Shown: in pieces, positions 1,289 to 52,466 of the stretch
Position numbering within the stretch: position 1 is the stretch's first letter
Layout: each line of letters begins with the position of its first letter
Source of the DNA: Candidatus Rhodoluna planktonica
GTDB taxonomy: Bacteria; Actinomycetota; Actinomycetes; Actinomycetales; Microbacteriaceae
Direction of reading: 5' to 3'
Assembly: GCF_001854225.1 (NCBI RefSeq)
Contig: NZ_CP015208.1
Location: 248,001 to 312,000 of the forward strand
Length of the DNA stretch: 64,000 nt
Translations under genes and position numbers: made by a program
The notes under the pieces: model-generated
Seen by the model: the letters and a program-made list of their open reading frames with translations, nothing else
The model's database searches: none
Told to the model about the DNA's origin: nothing

Positions 1289-3382
1289 ATGCAAAAAATC
1301 GCCCGTATTTTGATTGACCAGGCCCACAACCAAGCTTGGGCAGTCAAGCCCGAAATTGCGGCAACTATGAACCCGGCAAATCCAGCGGATGCCAGCTACG
1401 CCAAAATGGCTGAGGCCGCCAAGGTCGCCGAGTTTGAAGTGAATTTGCACGAAACCGGTCTGTTTACGGCAGCTTCGCTAGCCGAAACCGACATCCTGGT
1501 TATTCCACACGCGTCAACCGAAGAGTGGGAAAAAACTATCGGAGTTGGCTCGCCAAAATTTAGCCCCGACGAATTGGAAGTTATTGAAAGTTTTGTTCGC
1601 GGTGGCGGTTCATTGCTGTTGCTTGCCGAAACCGAGCAACCAAAATACGGAAACAACTTTGCCGAGCTTGCCGCAAAGTTTGGCGTTGAAATCAAAAACG
1701 CGACCGTGCAAGACCCTAGCCGTGCCTATAAAGAGGTGCCAACTTGGATCATCGGTGATTTTGATCGTCTGACAAAATCTGATTTTGCTTTCATGGTCGA
1801 GGAGGTTTGCCTTTACCGCGCCGGAGTTCTCGATGTGGCGACCGGAATTGATGCTGAGGTATTCATGCACACCTCTGAGCACGCAGCACCAGCTTCTGCA
1901 CCCTTGGGTGTAGCGGTTCAACACGAGCTTGGTCGTGTCGTGGTCTTGGCTGACTCTGACCTTTTCGGCGACGACTCAATTGATGACTGCGACAACAAGC
2001 AACTTTGGTTGAACATTGCTGGCTGGTTGGCAAACGCGAAGGCTGCTGCAAAAGCCAACTCAAAACGCGAGCCTAGCTCGCTGCTCGCCGATGCCGGCTG
2101 GCTCAAACTTGCTGATGCCATCGAAGCATTGCGTCCGATGCAATCAAAAGACGGATCAATTGACGCCAGCGAGTTCTCGCGCGATGAGGCATCAAAACTA
2201 GTTGATCAGGTTCTCTCGGCAATCGACGATCTCGCGCCACGTTTCGAACACCAAAAAGAGTATTTCGTCGCAGTCAAAAAAGACATTGAAAATTGGCGCC
2301 AGGGTGGCTTTGCTGTTCCAGACTTCTTTGATTCGCTTGAACTTTTCCGCCCAGATCTGAACCGCAAAAATTCGGTACAGCACCTTGCTGTATTTTCGAT
2401 GTACACCCAAAACGGAAACCCAAACCGCAACCTTGAAGCGGTAATTACGAACACTTTCTGGCCAGATTGGCTTGCTGAAAAAGAAAAGAAGTACAACAAC
2501 CCGGCTTTCATCCCGATCGAGTTTGTGGCCTTCACCTCTGGCTACGACACAAACTCGGCAGTCTTCTTTCCTGAAACCGTAGCGGTTCGCTCAGTGTCTA
2601 CCTATTACTGGGGCGGAATCTTCTGCGATCGCGAAGCGGCTCGTTTCCGTCGTGTTAGCCAAGCAGCAAAAGAACTTCTCTACCTGCCTCTTCCAGCCGA
2701 TGCCGAACGTTTGGTCAACGACCAGCAGCTAGCTCAAGAGACTTTTGTGCTCTGGGATCTAATTCACGACCGCACCCACTCGCGCGGCGACCTGCCATTT
2801 GACCCATTCATGATCAAACAGCGGATGCCATTCTGGATGTATGCCCTAGAGGAATTGCGATGCGACCTAGCAACCTTCCGTGAGACATTGGTGCTTGAGG
2901 CTGAGGGTGATCGCCTTGCCAAGTACATGCGCTACGCGATTTTGTTTGACCGAATTTTCCGGTTCTCAATCACCGGCGGTCGTGTGCGAAACTACGACGG
3001 CCTTGGCGGTCAGATCATCTTTGCTCACCTTCACAAAACCGGAGCACTGCACTGGACCGATAACCGCTTGGCCTTTGACTGGGAAAAAGTCACCGAAGAA
3101 GTGGTCAACCTCTGCGAGCAGGTCGAAGCTCTCTATCACGACGGCATCAACCGTTCGCGGATGGCCCAGTGGATTTCGGCTTACGAATTTGTGACCAGCC
3201 TGGTTCAGCCACACCCAGCATCAAACTGGGCTAAAGGTGCCGACACCCTACCTACCGGTGGTGAGCTGAAAGAAATGGTGAACCTGGTACTCGATGACGA
3301 GTTCCCCTTGAATGTGTTTTTTGAAACATTGAATCGAAAGCTTGCCGATGTGATTTCCTCAACCAAAGGCATCACCGCTTAG
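1289..3382 (+). CDS. Large DUF6421-like protein with HDxxH motif
   Basis: The 697-residue cytoplasmic protein has no signal peptide or membrane segment. Residues about 1-250 look like a Rossmann or class I amidotransferase-like domain, with hydrophobic strands ending in DILVIPHAS and GGSLLLLAE. The rest resembles the actinobacterial family I know as DUF6421; this family name is from memory. Residues 493-497 read HDRTH, followed 24 residues later by EELRCDL (Glu521/522), an arrangement like a gluzincin zinc site with Asp in place of the usual catalytic Glu. A Shine-Dalgarno GGAGG precedes the ATG. It ends just before an Lrp-type regulator. Function is unknown; a metal-dependent hydrolase is only a hypothesis. 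Confidence 0.75.
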   Translation: MQKIARILIDQAHNQAWAVKPEIAATMNPANPADASYAKMAEAAKVAEFEVNLHETGLFTAASLAETDILVIPHASTEEWEKTIGVGSPKFSPDELEVIESFVRGGGSLLLLAETEQPKYGNNFAELAAKFGVEIKNATVQDPSRAYKEVPTWIIGDFDRLTKSDFAFMVEEVCLYRAGVLDVATGIDAEVFMHTSEHAAPASAPLGVAVQHELGRVVVLADSDLFGDDSIDDCDNKQLWLNIAGWLANAKAAAKANSKREPSSLLADAGWLKLADAIEALRPMQSKDGSIDASEFSRDEASKLVDQVLSAIDDLAPRFEHQKEYFVAVKKDIENWRQGGFAVPDFFDSLELFRPDLNRKNSVQHLAVFSMYTQNGNPNRNLEAVITNTFWPDWLAEKEKKYNNPAFIPIEFVAFTSGYDTNSAVFFPETVAVRSVSTYYWGGIFCDREAARFRRVSQAAKELLYLPLPADAERLVNDQQLAQETFVLWDLIHDRTHSRGDLPFDPFMIKQRMPFWMYALEELRCDLATFRETLVLEAEGDRLAKYMRYAILFDRIFRFSITGGRVRNYDGLGGQIIFAHLHKTGALHWTDNRLAFDWEKVTEEVVNLCEQVEALYHDGINRSRMAQWISAYEFVTSLVQPHPASNWAKGADTLPTGGELKEMVNLVLDDEFPLNVFFETLNRKLADVISSTKGITA

Positions 3383-3398
3383 CCACTGGGCAAAGTGG

Positions 3399-3411
3399 CA
3401 TACTTTCGTTA
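3399..3411 (+). promoter_or_regulatory. Leaderless promoter of Lrp-type gene
   Basis: CATACT at 3399-3404 is followed by six bases and then the ATG at 3411, so transcription would start on the A of the start codon. No Shine-Dalgarno sequence is present. The first base is C rather than T, making this one of the weaker examples. Confidence 0.5.
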
Positions 3412-3860
3412 TGGAATCCCTGGACCGACGACTTCTCGAATTACTGGCAACAGATTCGAGTGCATCGATAAGCGAGCTGTCCGCTCAGTTAGAGGTACCG
3501 TCATCCACGTTGCATCAACGAATTAAAAAGTTGGAGTCGCGAGGTGTCATCACCGGCTATCGGGCACAGATCAATCAACGCGAAGTCGGGCTTTCGCTGC
3601 ACGCACTGGTTTCGTTGACCCCAATTGATCCGTCAAAGCCCGATGATGTGGTCGATAAAATTCGGCCCATTGCCGAAATTGAAAGTTGTTGGTCGGTGGC
3701 TGGCACCGAGTCTTACATCGTCAAAGTTGCGGTTGCAGAGCCAGCTGACCTCGAAGCGCTGCTTGCCAAGATTCGTGCCGAGGCAAACGTTTCAACGCGC
3801 ACCAGCGTGATTCTTTCGACTCCATTTGAGGGCCGCCAGGCTCAAATTCCAAAGGACTAA
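3411..3860 (+). CDS. Lrp/AsnC-family regulator (first)
   Basis: This 149-residue protein has the two-part Lrp/AsnC build. An N-terminal helix-turn-helix opens with LDRRLLELLATDSSASISEL and continues into VPSSTLHQRIKKLESRGVITGYRA. A C-terminal ligand-binding/oligomerisation (RAM) domain follows, with SVAGTESYIVKVAV in the expected place. Such regulators bind DNA as octamers or dimers and sense amino acids. It sits four bases upstream of the threonine aldolase gene in the same direction, so control of that gene or of threonine/glycine use is a reasonable inference. Confidence 0.9.
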   Translation: MESLDRRLLELLATDSSASISELSAQLEVPSSTLHQRIKKLESRGVITGYRAQINQREVGLSLHALVSLTPIDPSKPDDVVDKIRPIAEIESCWSVAGTESYIVKVAVAEPADLEALLAKIRAEANVSTRTSVILSTPFEGRQAQIPKD

Positions 3861-47747: not shown

Positions 47748-47769
47748 TTTTAGGTAGTTTCACCCGCCA

Positions 47770-47804
47770 CGAATGGTGTCCCGATAGGGGCGCCATTCGT
47801 TTTA
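47770..47804 (+). terminator. Terminator after pit operon
   Basis: A continuous stem (47770-47782 with 47787-47799) closed by GATA is followed by a T-rich end. It separates pit from the leader of the next operon. Confidence 0.88.
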
Positions 47805-47819
47805 TTACGCAACATTACG

Positions 47820-48038
47820 TATGCTGTTTTAGTCGGCGATGAGGCCAAGGTAGCCTTGTCTCATCACGGCATCGGCCTTTGGCCATTCGATGTGGTGGGT
47901 AAGACGAGAAAGGGAAGCCATGTTCACTATGCAAATGCGCATGATGAGCATGATGCAGGAGAGCATCGGCTAGTCGTCAGTTAATCTGACTCGAGCTCTC
48001 CGTAACACCCAACCGCCCCACCAATCGAAAGTACTCGT
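47820..48038 (+). promoter_or_regulatory. Structured leader of ABC-metY cluster
   Basis: TATGCT at 47820-47825 is a possible -10, with RNA starting near 47832. The leader has a hairpin (GATGAG 47838-47843 with CTCATC 47860-47865, plus an inner CAAGG/CCTTG pair), then a Met-rich short ORF. GGAGAGC (47958-47964, inside the ORF) pairs with GCTCTCC (47995-48001) around an inner GTCAG/CTGAC hairpin. TGGTGGG (47893-47899) pairs with CCCACCA (48017-48023), just before the next gene. There is no T-run, so an intrinsic terminator is not apparent. It matches no SAM riboswitch I know. Confidence 0.55.
47920..47973 (+). CDS. Methionine-rich leader peptide
   Basis: The 17-residue ORF reads MFTMQMRMMSMMQESIG, with seven methionines, six of them after the start and two Met-Met pairs. 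AAAGGG with a five-base spacer gives a strong start. It lies 65 bases ahead of the ABC transporter gene and its 3' codons are part of a helix. The make-up is that of an attenuation peptide sensing methionine, upstream of a cluster ending in metY. No homologue was compared. Confidence 0.6.
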   Translation: MFTMQMRMMSMMQESIG

Positions 48039-48818
48039 ATGTCAATCTCAGCAGCGCTTAGCAGCAAAAACTTCTCGGTATTACCGGCTGAAGTTGTGCT
48101 TGAAAATGTCAGCAAAACATTTGGCCGTGGAAACCGCGCCGTCAATGTTCTGGCCGACATTACACTAACCGTGGCCAAGGGTGAGATCGTTGTTTTGCTT
48201 GGCCCAAGCGGTTGTGGAAAATCTACTCTGCTAAGACTTATTGCCGGCTTAGAAACTAAAACTTCTGGGCAGGTTAAAGTCGATGGTCACGAAGTCACCG
48301 GCATTGATGCACGCACCAGCGTTGTTTTTCAAGAGCCTCGACTATTGCCTTGGCGTTCAATTCGCAAAAACATCGAATTGGGCACCCGAGGCGAAGATCA
48401 TTCGGCAGAAATAGATGCGTTGATTAGCGCGGTAGGTCTTGCGGGGTTTGAAAATCATTTGCCTCGCCAGGTCTCCGGCGGCATGGCTCAACGAGCCGCT
48501 CTAGCCAGAGCACTGAGCGGGTTCCCCGGCGTGCTATTGCTAGATGAGCCGTTTGCTGCGCTCGATGCCCTGACTCGTTTACAAATGCAAGATTTACTGC
48601 TCGAGGTAGCGGCTGCCGCTGGCTCAACAGTAATTCTGGTCACCCACGATATTGATGAAGCCCTGCACCTGGCAGATCGAGTAGTAGTCCTTGGCGAACG
48701 CGGATCCGGCATTGCAGAAATCGTTGAAGTGAATCAAGCCCGGCCGCGCGATCGCAGCCACCCAGCTTTGGCGCCGCTCAGAACTGAGTTGCTGTCCAGA
48801 TTTGGCATTCATCCATAA
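48039..48818 (+). CDS. ABC transporter ATP-binding protein, SsuB/TauB-like
   Basis: The 259-residue ATPase has Walker A LGPSGCGKSTLLRL, the Q-loop VVFQEPRLLPWRS, signature VSGGMAQRAALARAL, Walker B LLLDEPFAALD, and the H-loop THDIDEAL. The Q-loop style matches sulfonate/nitrate/taurine importers. The ribosome site is weak (GAAAG), in line with control through the structured leader. The lipoprotein gene follows after 15 bases. Confidence 0.92.
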   Translation: MSISAALSSKNFSVLPAEVVLENVSKTFGRGNRAVNVLADITLTVAKGEIVVLLGPSGCGKSTLLRLIAGLETKTSGQVKVDGHEVTGIDARTSVVFQEPRLLPWRSIRKNIELGTRGEDHSAEIDALISAVGLAGFENHLPRQVSGGMAQRAALARALSGFPGVLLLDEPFAALDALTRLQMQDLLLEVAAAAGSTVILVTHDIDEALHLADRVVVLGERGSGIAEIVEVNQARPRDRSHPALAPLRTELLSRFGIHP

Positions 48819-48833
48819 CCAAAAGAGAGAACA

Positions 48834-49850
48834 ATGAACAAGCTTTTCAAAAAAATTGCAGCCGTAGTCGTGGCCGCTTCCACCGCGGTAGTCGGTTTGA
48901 CCGGCTGCGTAGCCGGCGAGGGTTCAGCGGCCAGCGCCGAAAACGGCGAGGCGCTGTCTGTAATCAAGCTCGACTATGCCTACTGGAACCCGCTAAGCCT
49001 GGTGATTAAAGACCAGGGTTGGGCAGAAGAAGAATTTGCCAAACAGGGTGCAACCGTCGAGTGGGTACTTTCGGCCGGAAGTTCGAAAGCCCTAGAAAAC
49101 CTGAATGCAGAGGCAATTGATGTTGCATCAAGCGCCGGTTCGGCAGCATTTGCCGCTCGCGCGAATGGTGCAACTCTAAAAACGATTGGCGTTTTCAGTC
49201 AGCCAAACTGGGCGACCACTGTGGTACCTAAAGGCAGCGACATTACCTCGGTTGCCGCTCTGAAAGGCAAGAAAATTGCCGCCGCCTCCGGCACAGACCC
49301 ATATTTCTTCTTGCTGCGCTCGCTAAGTGACGCGGGGCTTTCAACCGCGGATGTTGAAATCGTGAACCTAATTCACGCCGATGGTCAAAAGGCGCTTGAA
49401 TCTGGCGATGTCGATGCTTGGGCAGGTCTAGATCCGCTGACCGCAACTTCAGAGCGCACCGCCGGATCAGTCATCCTTTCGTCAAAGCCTGAGTACAACA
49501 GCTGGGGAGTGCTTAGCGTGAACGAGAAATTCCTAGCGGCACACGCTGCCGAGCTCGAGATTGTGCTTTCGCTCTACGAAAAGGCACGAACTTGGATTGC
49601 CGAAAACCAAGATGCTGCCGTGGCAATTTTGGCTCGCGACGCATCATTGGATGAGGGCGACGCTCGCAAGGTCTTGCTAGAGCGCACCAAGGTTGACGTC
49701 TCGATCATCCCCGGTGCCGAGCAGAAGTCGGTACTTGAGGCAATCACTCCGGTGCTTGTGGCCGAAGGAAAAATCAAATCTCAAGAAGCTGCAGACAATG
49801 CGTTGGCTTCAATTTACGACACTGCAATTGCCGAGAAGGTAGCTAAGTAA
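48834..49850 (+). CDS. Substrate-binding lipoprotein, SsuA/NMT1-like
   Basis: The 338-residue protein has a signal helix with lipobox LTGC (Cys25) and the two-lobe binding fold of the sulfonate/NMT1 group: DYAYWNPLSLVIKDQGWAEE, SAGSSKALENLNAEAIDVAS and ALKGKKIAAASGTDPYFFLL. It captures the substrate at the cell surface for the ABC importer. A sulfur compound is likely from the neighbouring metY and Met-rich leader, but the ligand is not certain. Confidence 0.88.
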   Translation: MNKLFKKIAAVVVAASTAVVGLTGCVAGEGSAASAENGEALSVIKLDYAYWNPLSLVIKDQGWAEEEFAKQGATVEWVLSAGSSKALENLNAEAIDVASSAGSAAFAARANGATLKTIGVFSQPNWATTVVPKGSDITSVAALKGKKIAAASGTDPYFFLLRSLSDAGLSTADVEIVNLIHADGQKALESGDVDAWAGLDPLTATSERTAGSVILSSKPEYNSWGVLSVNEKFLAAHAAELEIVLSLYEKARTWIAENQDAAVAILARDASLDEGDARKVLLERTKVDVSIIPGAEQKSVLEAITPVLVAEGKIKSQEAADNALASIYDTAIAEKVAK

Positions 49851-49852
49851 AA

Positions 49853-50656
49853 ATGTCTGACACAAGAAGCGGCAGCACCGCAATCAAGAACTCCGGCAAC
49901 AAGACCGTGCGCAAACTACGTAATCTTGGCCTGGGTTTGGTGCTGCCGATTCTTGTGCTTGTAATCTGGCAAACGCTATCAACCAACGGTAGTTTCAGCC
50001 CCACCCAGTTGCCGCAACCGGGCGACATTGTGCTCGCTGCGGTAGAACTTATCAACCGCGGCACACTATTGGGCCACGTTGCAATCAGTGCTCAACGCGT
50101 GCTCATCGGTTTCTTAATCGGTGCCCTTCTGGGTATTTTTCTCGGTTCTATCGTGGGCCTGTCCAAAATCGCTGGTCGCCTGCTTTACCCTACCGTGGGC
50201 GCGCTGCGCGCGGTGCCATCGCTGGCTTGGGTTCCACTCTTGCTAATTTGGATGGGCATCTATGAAGAGCCCAAAATCACGCTGATTGCAATCGGTGCGT
50301 TCTTCCCGGTTTTCACCACGGTTGCCTCTGGATTCAAAGCTGTTGATCGTAATTTGATCGAAGTTGGTCGCAGCTACGGCCTGCGCGGGGCTCAGCTAGT
50401 CACCCAGATTCTGCTGCCGGCAGCTTCACCAACGATTTTTTCGGGTATTCGTTTAGGTTTGGCGCAGGCGTGGTTGTTCTTAGTTGCTGCCGAACTGATT
50501 GCCAGTTCGAAAGGCTTGGGCTTTTTATTGCTGGACAGTCAAAATACGGCCCGCACCGACATCCTGTTTTTGTCGATTATTTTGTTGGCAATTCTCGGCA
50601 AGACCAGCGACTGGTTGGTCGGCTTGCTTGAGAAGCGGGTTTTGCGCTGGGTTTAG
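49853..50656 (+). CDS. ABC transporter permease, SsuC-like
   Basis: The 267-residue permease has six membrane helices and the EAA-loop motif EVGRSYGLRGAQLVTQILLPAA, which docks the ATPase. The central GAFFPVFTTVASGFKAVDRN matches SsuC/TauC. It starts two bases after the binding-protein stop, completing an importer with the two previous genes. Confidence 0.9.
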   Translation: MSDTRSGSTAIKNSGNKTVRKLRNLGLGLVLPILVLVIWQTLSTNGSFSPTQLPQPGDIVLAAVELINRGTLLGHVAISAQRVLIGFLIGALLGIFLGSIVGLSKIAGRLLYPTVGALRAVPSLAWVPLLLIWMGIYEEPKITLIAIGAFFPVFTTVASGFKAVDRNLIEVGRSYGLRGAQLVTQILLPAASPTIFSGIRLGLAQAWLFLVAAELIASSKGLGFLLLDSQNTARTDILFLSIILLAILGKTSDWLVGLLEKRVLRWV

Positions 50657-50685: not shown

Positions 50686-51993
50686 ATGAGTGAAAAGTCA
50701 AAAGAGCACCAGTTTGGTTTTAAGACCAGGTCGCTGCACGCTGGAGCCGTTCCCGACGCCGCCACTGGGGCTCGCGCTGTGCCGATCTACCAGACCACAT
50801 CCTTCGTTTTTGAAGACACCAAGGATGCCGCGAATCTTTTCGCTCTGCAAAAGTACGGCAACATTTACAGCCGCATCGGAAACCCCACCGTGGCAAGTTT
50901 TGAAGAGCGAATTGCCAGCCTTGAAGGCGGACTCGGCGCGGTTGCAACTGCCAGCGGTCAAGCCGCTGAATTCATCACTTTTGCTGCCCTAACGCAAGCC
51001 GGCGATCACATTGTCTCTTCGTCTCGGCTATACGGCGGAACAGTAACTCAGCTTGACGTCACCATGCGTCGCTTTGGGGTTGATACGACTTTTGTAACAG
51101 GAAACTCAGCCGAAGACTATGAAGCGGCAATTCAAGAAAACACCAAACTCATTTTTGTCGAAGTGGTTTCCAACCCTTCCAGCAACGTTGCAGATTTGCA
51201 GGCCATCGCTGATGTTGCGCACAAAAACGGTATTCCGCTAATCGTCGACGCCACCACAGTCACGCCATACCTCTGCCGACCTATCGAACACGGGGCCGAC
51301 ATCGTTATTCACTCAGCAACGAAGTTTTTGGGTGGCCACGGAACAACTCTTGGTGGAGTCGTGGTCGACTCCGGCAACTTCCACTGGGACAATGGCAAAT
51401 TCCCAACCCTGGTAGACCCGGTTCCGGCTTACGGAGATTTGCAGTGGTGGGGAAACTTTGGTGAATACGGGTTCCTGACCAAGTTGCGCACCGAACAATT
51501 GCGCGACATCGGTCCGGCACTCGCTCCGCACAGCGCCTTTTTGCTCTTGCTTGGTGTCGAGACTCTGTCGCAACGCATGAAAGATCATGTGACCAACGCC
51601 AAAGCTGTAGCCGAGTGGCTCGATTCGGACAAGCGAATTTCATGGGTAAAATACGCCGGTCTGGAATCGCATCCCGACCACGCATTGGCGAAGAAATACA
51701 CCCCAGAAGGTCCGGGCGCCGTGTTTTCGTTTGGCGTTGAAGGCGGCCGCAAAACTGGCGAGCGTTTCATCAACAGCGTTCAGCTGCTAAGCCACCTGGC
51801 TAACATCGGCGACGCTAAGACCTTGGTCATCCACCCGGCATCTACTACACATCAGCAGCTCAACACCGAGCAACTCGCTGCGGCCGGTGTGCCAGAAGAT
51901 TTGGTGCGAATCAGCGTCGGCATCGAAGATGTCGAAGACATCATTTGGGATCTTGACCAAGCACTGACCAAGGCAACGGGGGTTTCCCGATGA
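50686..51993 (+). CDS. metY: O-acetylhomoserine sulfhydrylase
   Basis: The 435-residue PLP enzyme of the Cys/Met metabolism family makes homocysteine from O-acetylhomoserine and sulfide. It has TRSLHAGAVPDAATGARAVP, GGLGAVATASGQAA, and SATKFLGGHGTT with Lys213, in the extended form typical of MetY. No ribosome site is seen; TTTAAT lies six bases upstream of the ATG, so it may have its own start as well as the operon transcript. The next gene overlaps it by four bases. Confidence 0.93.
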   Translation: MSEKSKEHQFGFKTRSLHAGAVPDAATGARAVPIYQTTSFVFEDTKDAANLFALQKYGNIYSRIGNPTVASFEERIASLEGGLGAVATASGQAAEFITFAALTQAGDHIVSSSRLYGGTVTQLDVTMRRFGVDTTFVTGNSAEDYEAAIQENTKLIFVEVVSNPSSNVADLQAIADVAHKNGIPLIVDATTVTPYLCRPIEHGADIVIHSATKFLGGHGTTLGGVVVDSGNFHWDNGKFPTLVDPVPAYGDLQWWGNFGEYGFLTKLRTEQLRDIGPALAPHSAFLLLLGVETLSQRMKDHVTNAKAVAEWLDSDKRISWVKYAGLESHPDHALAKKYTPEGPGAVFSFGVEGGRKTGERFINSVQLLSHLANIGDAKTLVIHPASTTHQQLNTEQLAAAGVPEDLVRISVGIEDVEDIIWDLDQALTKATGVSR

Positions 51994-52466
51994 GTTGGGT
52001 CGAACCAAACGCACGTGAACGCCTGCGCATTTTGCAGGATTCGAAAGTTATTGCAATCGTTGGTGCTTCAAATAACCGGGCCAGGGCCTCATACTTTGTG
52101 GCAAGTTACCTCAAGGGCTTCGAGAACTATCGCGTTTATTTTGTGAATCCAATGATTGACGAATTACTCGGTGATCCGGTTTACAAATCATTGGCCGATT
52201 TACCTGAAAAACCAGATATCGTCGATGTCTTCCGCAAACCCAGTGATACTCCGGCTGTCTTTGCCGAGGCCGCTGCGGCGGGAGCGAAAACCGTTTGGTT
52301 GCAGCTTGGTATTTTCAACGAAGAGGTCGGCGAGTTGGGCCAAAAAGCTGGCATCAACGTGGTGATGAATCGCTGCATCAAAATTGAGCACGCTCGATTC
52401 CACGGTGGTCTCCACCTAGCTGGTTTCAACACCGGAGTAATTTCTTCAAAGAGGCAGGCAATCTAA
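51990..52466 (+). CDS. CoA-binding protein (YccU-like)
   Basis: The 158-residue protein has the CoA-binding Rossmann fold: VIAIVGASNNRARASYFVASYL, then FVNPMIDELLGDPVYKSLADLP, DVFRKPSDTPAVFAEAAAAGAKTVWLQ and VMNRCIKIEHAR. The role is not established. It overlaps metY (ATGA) and is itself overlapped by the thioredoxin-NHL gene, so the three genes are translationally coupled. Confidence 0.9.
   Translation: MSWVEPNARERLRILQDSKVIAIVGASNNRARASYFVASYLKGFENYRVYFVNPMIDELLGDPVYKSLADLPEKPDIVDVFRKPSDTPAVFAEAAAAGAKTVWLQLGIFNEEVGELGQKAGINVVMNRCIKIEHARFHGGLHLAGFNTGVISSKRQAI

Follow-up and report, generated by a model that had tools for sequence, protein, structure and literature searches.

Leader peptides and RNA leaders of actinobacterial sulfur genes

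The known control of bacterial methionine genes relies mostly on SAM and SAH riboswitches, T-boxes and repressors. Another layer of control has been described for sulfur operons in mycobacteria and other Actinobacteria, which are preceded by Cys-rich leader peptides or upstream ORFs (uORFs), as set out in the accessible text of two studies (PMC1262725, PMC4633059); later work on Cys leaders (Canestrari 2020) is cited in the accessible part of PMC13236596. As described there, these leaders resemble the ones analysed below: a short ORF with a run of one sulfur amino acid near its stop codon stands before sulfur genes and no terminator hairpin follows (PMC1262725, PMC4633059). Rho-dependent termination is named as one possibility for the mycobacterial Cys leaders in the accessible text of PMC1262725. 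They differ in that the amino acid is cysteine and that the available descriptions report no conserved potential-terminator hairpins, whereas most of the leaders analysed here carry a highly conserved element, termed R1. The same 2005 comparative study, which covered actinobacteria, reports in its accessible text no conserved RNA regulatory structures before methionine operons (PMC1262725).

A leader peptide, MetL, has been proposed before metNIQ of S. lividans from the transcriptome of one strain, according to the accessible part of PMC8079986, and is the one earlier methionine leader peptide proposal found for Actinobacteria in the literature covered. It is an actinobacterial short ORF with Met codons near the stop (MSTTSDRTPATEATTTPGARCMCRRMCAF) before a methionine importer, and it is followed by hairpins with no typical Rho-independent terminator, all of which recalls the leaders described here; it is unlike them in its leaderless transcript, in having two internal Met plus Cys, and in its operon (PMC8079986, accessible text). 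The accessible text of a uORF review (PMC11550727) holds nothing on bacterial Met leaders. The earlier note on this DNA regarded a Met-sensing leader as unfamiliar in this lineage; in view of the S. lividans proposal the idea is not wholly new. Two further comparisons are instructive. The ilvB-II motif of Corynebacterium likewise joins a conserved RNA motif to an in-frame uORF rich in pathway amino acids, with the differences that these are branched-chain amino acids, that an intrinsic terminator stem is present and that reporter evidence exists (accessible part of PMC10272879). SAM riboswitches and the Streptomyces-metH and -metK RNAs (Rfam; accessible part of PMC8079986) are likewise RNA leaders of actinobacterial methionine-related genes, but the leader under study has no Rfam match above chance.

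What appears to be new here, at moderate confidence, is an amino-acid-sensing uORF for methionine that is joined in most relatives to an RNA element without an Rfam entry. As methionine starts every protein, a Met-codon sensor could report the charging of elongator tRNA apart from that of initiator tRNA.

A methionine-rich ORF upstream of an ssu-metY operon

The window, that is the whole stretch of DNA analysed, comprises 64,000 nucleotides (64 kb) of Candidatus Rhodoluna planktonica, a member of the Microbacteriaceae (contig NZ_CP015208.1, positions 248,001 to 312,000). Positions below are those of the window.

47769 to 47800, forward strand: intrinsic-terminator-like site from a terminator scan, a consensus match with 14 pairs followed by TTTATTACGC; upstream border of the leader region
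47804 to 47819, forward strand: candidate promoter box variant ATTACGCAACATTACG (compare TTACG-N5-TTTCA of leaderless metY), matched by a loosened pattern
47909 to 47917, forward strand: Shine-Dalgarno (SD) site of the leader ORF, AAAGGGAAG, a good site as read from the sequence
47919 to 47952, forward strand: predicted hairpin A, holding the start codon and Met codons; -16.2 kcal/mol, z -3.4, 0 of 200 shuffles as good
47920 to 47973, forward strand: leader peptide ORF, MFTMQMRMMSMMQESIG and stop, 7 Met in 17 codons; based on sequence, simulation, genome pattern search and the matching placement of uORFs in related operons
47958 to 48001, forward strand: hairpin B of the predicted fold, GGAGAGC (last ORF codons) paired with GCTCTCC (47995 to 48001)
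48001 to 48038, forward strand: C-rich, G-poor stretch before ssuB, conceivably a Rho loading site (rut)
48039 to 48818, forward strand: ssuB-like ABC ATPase, first operon gene
48834 to 49850, forward strand: SsuA-family substrate-binding protein (SBP; TIGR01728, 192 bits, cut-off 163.5)
49853 to 50656, forward strand: SsuC/TauC-type permease
50686 to 51993, forward strand: MetY, O-acetylhomoserine sulfhydrylase (TIGR01326, 612 bits, cut-off 495)
51990 to 52466, forward strand: CoA_binding_2 protein

The operon runs ssuB-SBP-permease-metY-CoA_binding, and a CoA_binding_2 gene also follows metY at the comparison loci L066, L067, L068, L070 and L106. The terminator-like site stands after upstream Pit-type phosphate transporter genes, and the leader ORF is the sole ORF between this site and ssuB, from which it is separated by a spacer of 65 nt. 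Its codons read ATG TTC ACT ATG CAA ATG CGC ATG ATG AGC ATG ATG CAG GAG AGC ATC GGC TAG, with Met at positions 1, 4, 6, 8, 9, 11 and 12. The earlier note's description of a 17-codon ORF with a good ribosome site, seven Met and two Met-Met pairs, standing alone in the leader of an ABC importer-metY operon, is borne out by the sequence and by the ssu genes and MetY found downstream. Between the promoter box and the uORF, at 47838-47865, the sequence contains a near-palindrome, GATGAGGCCAAGGTAGCCTTGTCTCATC, which may be a 5'-leader hairpin or an operator.

Such a density of Met codons is exceptional for this DNA. Eight neighbouring genes have Met at 28 of their 2570 codons (1.1%), versus 7/17 in the leader ORF, which is enriched in codons of the pathway's amino acid as attenuators of the trp/his/ilv class are. 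ATG-started ORFs of at most 17 codons with at least seven Met numbered 0 in 30 simulations (first-order Markov, with the base statistics of the 64 kb, both strands), versus one observed. The pattern ATGNNNATGNNNATGATG occurs a single time in the 1.42-Mb genome, at the leader ORF. The full Met spacing was found in four of 398 genomes of the family; besides the window's own genome, these are three in which runs of ATG/ACG triplets produce the match, and they were dismissed as coincidences. When the ATPase served as query, 30 loci were fetched, and a Met-rich short ORF in the scanned upstream stretch was found at the window's own locus only. Among the matches listed for 59 other congener genomes, none to ssuB exceeded 46% identity, so a close comparison for the window operon is missing.

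Predicted structure of the leader RNA

The leader RNA is predicted to be highly structured: the segment 47890-48045 folds at -52.7 kcal/mol, versus a shuffle mean of -39.2 (z -3.8). Translation of the leader ORF would open hairpin A. The segment holding hairpin B (47953-48009) folds at -22.5 kcal/mol (z -3.8, 0 of 200 shuffles as good), and the leaders of the related loci L065 (-3.7) and L066 (-3.8) reach similar z-scores; the inner stem of hairpin B, GTCAG/CTGAC, begins 2 nt past the stop codon, a spacing equal to that of the R1-type leaders.

A terminator scan between the uORF and ssuB of the window returned no terminator-like site, and the mutually exclusive terminator and antiterminator with a U-tract that mark trp/his/ilv-type attenuators are not present in the window leader. 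In the related leaders, sequence rich in A and C comes after the stems. In the window, the 40 nt at 48001-48040 comprise 16 C and 5 G, a C-G excess reached by 0.5% of the 40-nt windows in the 64 kb. C exceeds G by 4 to 11 per 40 nt after the structure in 10/10 leaders; in the nine related ones the excess is modest, being reached by 1.7 to 19% of background windows, and it passes the 2% tail only in the window and L110, the background being the window's own 64 kb throughout.

Known RNA families do not account for these structures. Across the 64-kb window, Rfam gathering scores were reached only by tRNAs and SRP RNA, and for the window leader, at E values up to 5, only chance-level matches to Chloroflexus-1 (13.6 bits versus 181.5) and Afu_304 appeared. 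The L065 leader gave one chance-level match, HIV_FS2 (14.3 bits versus a gathering score of 44, E 3.4). The Rfam models of SAM and SAH riboswitches fit neither leader.

Short uORFs at related ssu loci

A binding-protein scan of genome contigs yielded eight loci, six of which belong to Microbacteriaceae or Micrococcales (63-72% identity). Of the 22 genomes of the related genus g42, six have an orthologous ssu locus, and in all six a short, SD-led uORF precedes ssuB, so that a short ORF in the 5' leader, predicted to be translated in the window, recurs at the corresponding place. The SD sites of related loci are of the AAGGAG, AAAGG or GGGAGG type and lie in the same place as AAAGGGAAG of the window. 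Five of the six g42 uORFs have exactly 25 codons and are followed by R1 2 nt after the stop; four are clearly Met-rich, with 5, 7, 8 and 8 Met of 25. At L065, L067 and L070 the uORF MPAMRFSHSAGFAMGMSMMTMERML stands directly before ssuB with the SD AAGGAG (at L067 it begins MPALRF), and L066 has MSRSRILPFVVSLSGTLLGAMARMR. The L065 contig (genome G506) stops within the permease gene, so metY lies outside the view. Several entries cover one locus (L115 and L066, L065 and L116, L067 and L114, L068 and L125), and the L070 leader is identical to that of L113; overlapping loci were entered once in genome counts.

Two uORFs depart from this pattern. The L115 uORF has Met1, Met21 and Met24 only (3/25): Met14, 16, 18 and 19 are missing, while frame, R1 and operon are intact, an indication that some leaders can do without the run of Met codons. 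The sixth g42 genome with an ssu locus (G504) carries the L068/L125 type, MTIIHAPFMLNRMR, with 14 codons, two internal Met and no R1; the other five are the genomes with strong R1 matches. In a third genus, the L069/L076 locus (one genome region, ssuB 71% identical, no adjacent metY) shows no Met-rich short ORF. A family search covered 299 genomes, of which 120 had a match, and 30 loci were taken from these: L074 and L076 proved to be loci already known, L075 is a new close locus with the uORF MSDLRILHSVVSKVGMRMVSMERML, and 26 more distant ssu loci (L077-L102, ssuB 52-58% identical) have no family-like uORF, with only 151 nt upstream at L095. Short ORFs of L084, L086, L089 and L092 contain at least two internal Met and are unrelated in sequence to the family uORFs.

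Met codons in the ssu uORFs are thus usually, though not always, kept. On the question raised in the earlier note, whether they are conserved in related Microbacteriaceae, the uORF at 6/6 g42 ssu loci, four of them clearly Met-rich, speaks for conservation, and L115 and L068, with two internal Met each, speak against it. Orthologous leaders lacking the ORF or its Met codons, which the note had named as contrary evidence, exist in part, as L115 and L069. The note's idea of a leader that couples methionine supply to the downstream genes receives partial support.

The R1 element

R1 is a strongly conserved stretch directly after the uORF in related leaders. Its layout is the stop codon, 2 nt, GCTTAG ... 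GTGAA CTAAGC and then a hairpin, GCGAGG-GTGAAG-CCTCGC. The stem shows one G-U change and zero double compensatory changes, and the unpaired bases GTGAA beside it are nearly invariant. A covariance model was built from five stretches (L038, L041, L065, L066 and L106) and includes no more of the uORF than the stop codon and the single base before it. Matches were obtained in 5 of 22 genomes of g42 (E about 1e-22), in 3 of 67 genomes of the window's genus (four loci) and in 5 of 398 genomes of the family (two genera). Five further g42 matches, in four genomes at E 0.03-0.1, were taken as chance, and the 16 g42 genomes with no ssu locus, several of them incomplete, gave no match better than E 0.044. 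The window's own genome has no match at E of 0.01 or less. There were 0 matches in 198 genomes of the order, where stricter filters applied and an empty answer alone shows nothing, and a 21-base R1 pattern had no match in viral contigs.

Nine R1 loci result: five are inside the model, two (L113, L114) had been met earlier through L070 and L067, and only L110 and L111 were newly found, which limits the independence of the search to the latter two. In each of the nine the uORF is exactly 25 codons long and led by an SD, and its stop lies 2 nt before the stem GCTTAG/CTAAGC (or CTGAGC); at L109 the contig starts 12 nt before the uORF, and GGAG is present there. The nine represent seven distinct uORF sequences, and eight of the nine uORFs contain 5 to 8 Met in 25 codons, L115 having 3/25.

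Conservation and descent of the leader peptide

Residues M1, R5, G15, M21, R23 and M24 are invariant in the seven distinct R1 uORFs, and Arg23 is encoded by CGA in all seven; eight genes of the window use CGA 19 times versus CGC 58 times. Close pairs show more synonymous than nonsynonymous change: pS/pN is 0.32/0.09 for L108/L113 and 0.30/0.09 for L108/L109, with Fisher P values of 0.037 and 0.049. The other two of the four tested pairs gave P values of 0.098 (L113/L112) and 0.61 (L113/L115), and in seven pairs with L115 pS is 0.47-0.58 and pN 0.36-0.47. In 15 pairwise comparisons of six leader loci, identity is 60-100% over the uORF and 78-95% over R1; the flanks are 47-68% (upstream) and 54-71% (downstream) identical.

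In the window peptide, the stretch FTMQMRMMSM shares seven identities with the family core FAMGMSMMSM, a level reached by 1529 of 20000 composition-keeping shuffles (7.6%). This test of Met spacing gives no significant sign that the window peptide descends from the R1 peptide, and common descent is therefore not proved by sequence: its support lies in the position of the leaders and in the operon.

A proposed ribosome-position sensor

The reading preferred here, which is somewhat more probable than its negation, is that the leader ORF acts as a methionine-responsive, ribosome-mediated attenuator of the ssuB-SBP-permease-metY-CoA_binding operon. We infer that the leader is translated and that it senses Met, as well as the on/off sense and the mode of output. 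Expression of the operon would be tied to the speed of the ribosome across the Met codons of the leader. When charged Met-tRNA is scarce, the ribosome would wait on the Met codons, the stem 2 nt past the uORF stop would stay intact and the operon would be expressed; when methionine is plentiful, a ribosome at the stop codon would cover or melt the stem, and expression would be reduced. Most likely Rho would bring this about from the C-rich stretch that precedes the first gene, the preferred version of the output; alternatively, translation of the first gene would be hindered.

The geometry of the window leader and of the R1 leaders is that of a ribosome-position sensor. For the modelling, the ribosome edge was set 12 or 14 nt past the first base of the codon in the A site. 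The distance from the first base of a codon to the start of the R1 stem is 20 nt for codon 21 (Met), 11 nt for codon 24 (Met) and 5 nt for the stop. When pair probabilities were modelled under several settings, free RNA formed the stem in 9/9 R1 leaders, and the stem also formed in 8-9 of nine with the ribosome on codon 14 and, depending on the setting, in 7-9 of nine with the ribosome on Met21. With the ribosome on the stop codon the stem formed in 0/9, because the 5' arm is then covered by construction; with the ribosome on Met24 the count swung with the settings from 0 to 9 of nine, which makes this position uninformative. Because the stem is also present in free RNA, it would return once the ribosome leaves; any switch therefore has to operate co-transcriptionally, with a ribosome still on the uORF. 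In the lowest-energy folds of L108 and L115 with the ribosome on the first internal Met, the R1 stem is absent. Counting in the window gives the corresponding picture: a ribosome on Met8, or on Met9 with a 12- or 14-nt edge, spares the inner stem and the GGAGAGC arm, and a ribosome at the stop covers both the inner stem GTCAG/CTGAC and the outer arm GGAGAGC. The L113 fold suggested that the stem arm, once freed, pairs with the start of ssuB; this idea was discarded, as such pairing is not consistent across leaders.

The same leaders could be regulatory without any counting of Met codons. In this unlikely alternative, the nascent peptide (R5...G15...M21-x-R23-M24-x-stop), or translation to a fixed stop, controls the stem in a TnaC-like arrest, the signal being a small molecule (S-adenosylmethionine, for example) or the overall rate of translation. 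The invariant residues listed above do not cover the whole Met run, Arg23 is always CGA although CGC is the commonest in the eight window genes, L115 retains the invariant residues with few Met, and the L068 uORF, which lacks R1, also ends CGA-ATG-CGA-stop. The window argues the other way: its uORF ends MMQESIG before the stop and does not keep the pattern, yet it is the most Met-rich of all, and Met richness is found in both the R1 type and the window despite different ends and different RNA.

Attention to the RNA itself leads to a second and rather improbable alternative, in which the uORF plays a secondary part and R1 serves as an aptamer, either a riboswitch for methionine, SAM or SAH or a binding site for a protein. 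Such a role would suit the near-invariance of its unpaired bases and the five pairs with L115 in which R1 is conserved above the uORF (78-85% versus 60-64%). It is opposed by the failure of any Rfam family to fit the L065 leader and by the intact 25-codon uORF at a fixed 2-nt spacing in all nine R1 loci; moreover, the window has the uORF without R1, so R1 cannot explain the window. In a third alternative the window ORF would be devoid of function, its ATG triplets having come together by chance within an intergenic hairpin, as could be argued from a peptide that cannot be aligned to the family significantly beyond composition and from a hairpin A that is made by the ATG repeats themselves. The 30 simulations with no such ORF, the uniqueness of the Met pattern in the genome, the good SD and the uORFs at the matching position in 6/6 g42 ssu loci make this the most improbable of the alternatives. 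For the preferred reading, a methionine-responsive attenuator, the uORF and R1 together offer a direct reporter test in streamlined Microbacteriaceae.

Leaders and promoter boxes at metY

The four R1 loci of the window's genus, in three of its 67 genomes, place the uORF-R1 leader before a different metY, whose product is 51-53% identical to that of the window; no ssu genes lie nearby within the stretches compared. Recurrence of the leader at a different metY strengthens the link to methionine. A metY survey of the genus provided loci for 30 of 45 metY matches, and among these 30 a uORF of the R1 kind is present in two (L038, L041).

The leaderless metY genes of the window's genus (g1) are characterized by another feature. 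A box, TTACG-N5-TTTCA or a variant, lies 61-125 nt, mostly about 80 nt, upstream in 27/27 of them (26 loci within L037-L064 plus L103), a count that is descriptive and not a blind test, since a stricter first pattern had matched 22/31 rows and was loosened after looking at the misses. Set aside from this count were L035 and L036, where metY is not first or is ssu-linked, and the leader-bearing L038 and L041. The loosened pattern has six matches in the 64 kb on both strands, 47804-47819 included. This box is probably the site of a methionine or sulfur regulator. At the leader-bearing metY loci L108, L110 and L111 it is found neither in the 250 nt before the uORF nor in the 330 nt after its start; L109, whose contig starts at the uORF, was left out of this check. 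The window operon has both a box variant and a leader, and among the ssuB-type R1 leaders a box match occurs in L112 only, 229 nt before the uORF.

Comparison of L108 (before metY) with L113 (before ssuB) reveals 86% identity in the uORF and 85% in R1, versus 52% and 63% in the flanks, so that the leader looks like a mobile unit. In L108 (genome G053) the sequence CCCAATTGGCTATA between R1 and metY is identical to the ssuB start region of L065 and L067, which suggests that the leader came from an ssu operon. A tentative wider reading, held with somewhat less than even confidence, is that of a portable methionine cassette: the uORF-R1 unit would have passed between the ssu-metY operon and a metY not linked to it, where it took the place of the transcription-factor box, and the window would harbour a Met-richer version with another hairpin in place of R1, giving a Met-codon ribosome sensor across two genera. 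The apparent exchange of promoter box for leader at metY would exemplify the replacement of one regulatory layer by another.

Two minor observations concern other metY loci. In the binned genome G024, metY is present twice, on contigs C77 and C16, with a separate R1 leader before each copy; the bin could be a strain mixture. At L104 (G023, contig C80; metY at about 2276-3568, reverse strand) the contig shows no ssu match and the scanned stretch before metY no Met-rich short ORF; its metY-CoA_binding pair is 82% and 77% identical to that of the window, and the stretch GGTAACCGGGCCGC before metY is slightly R1-like.
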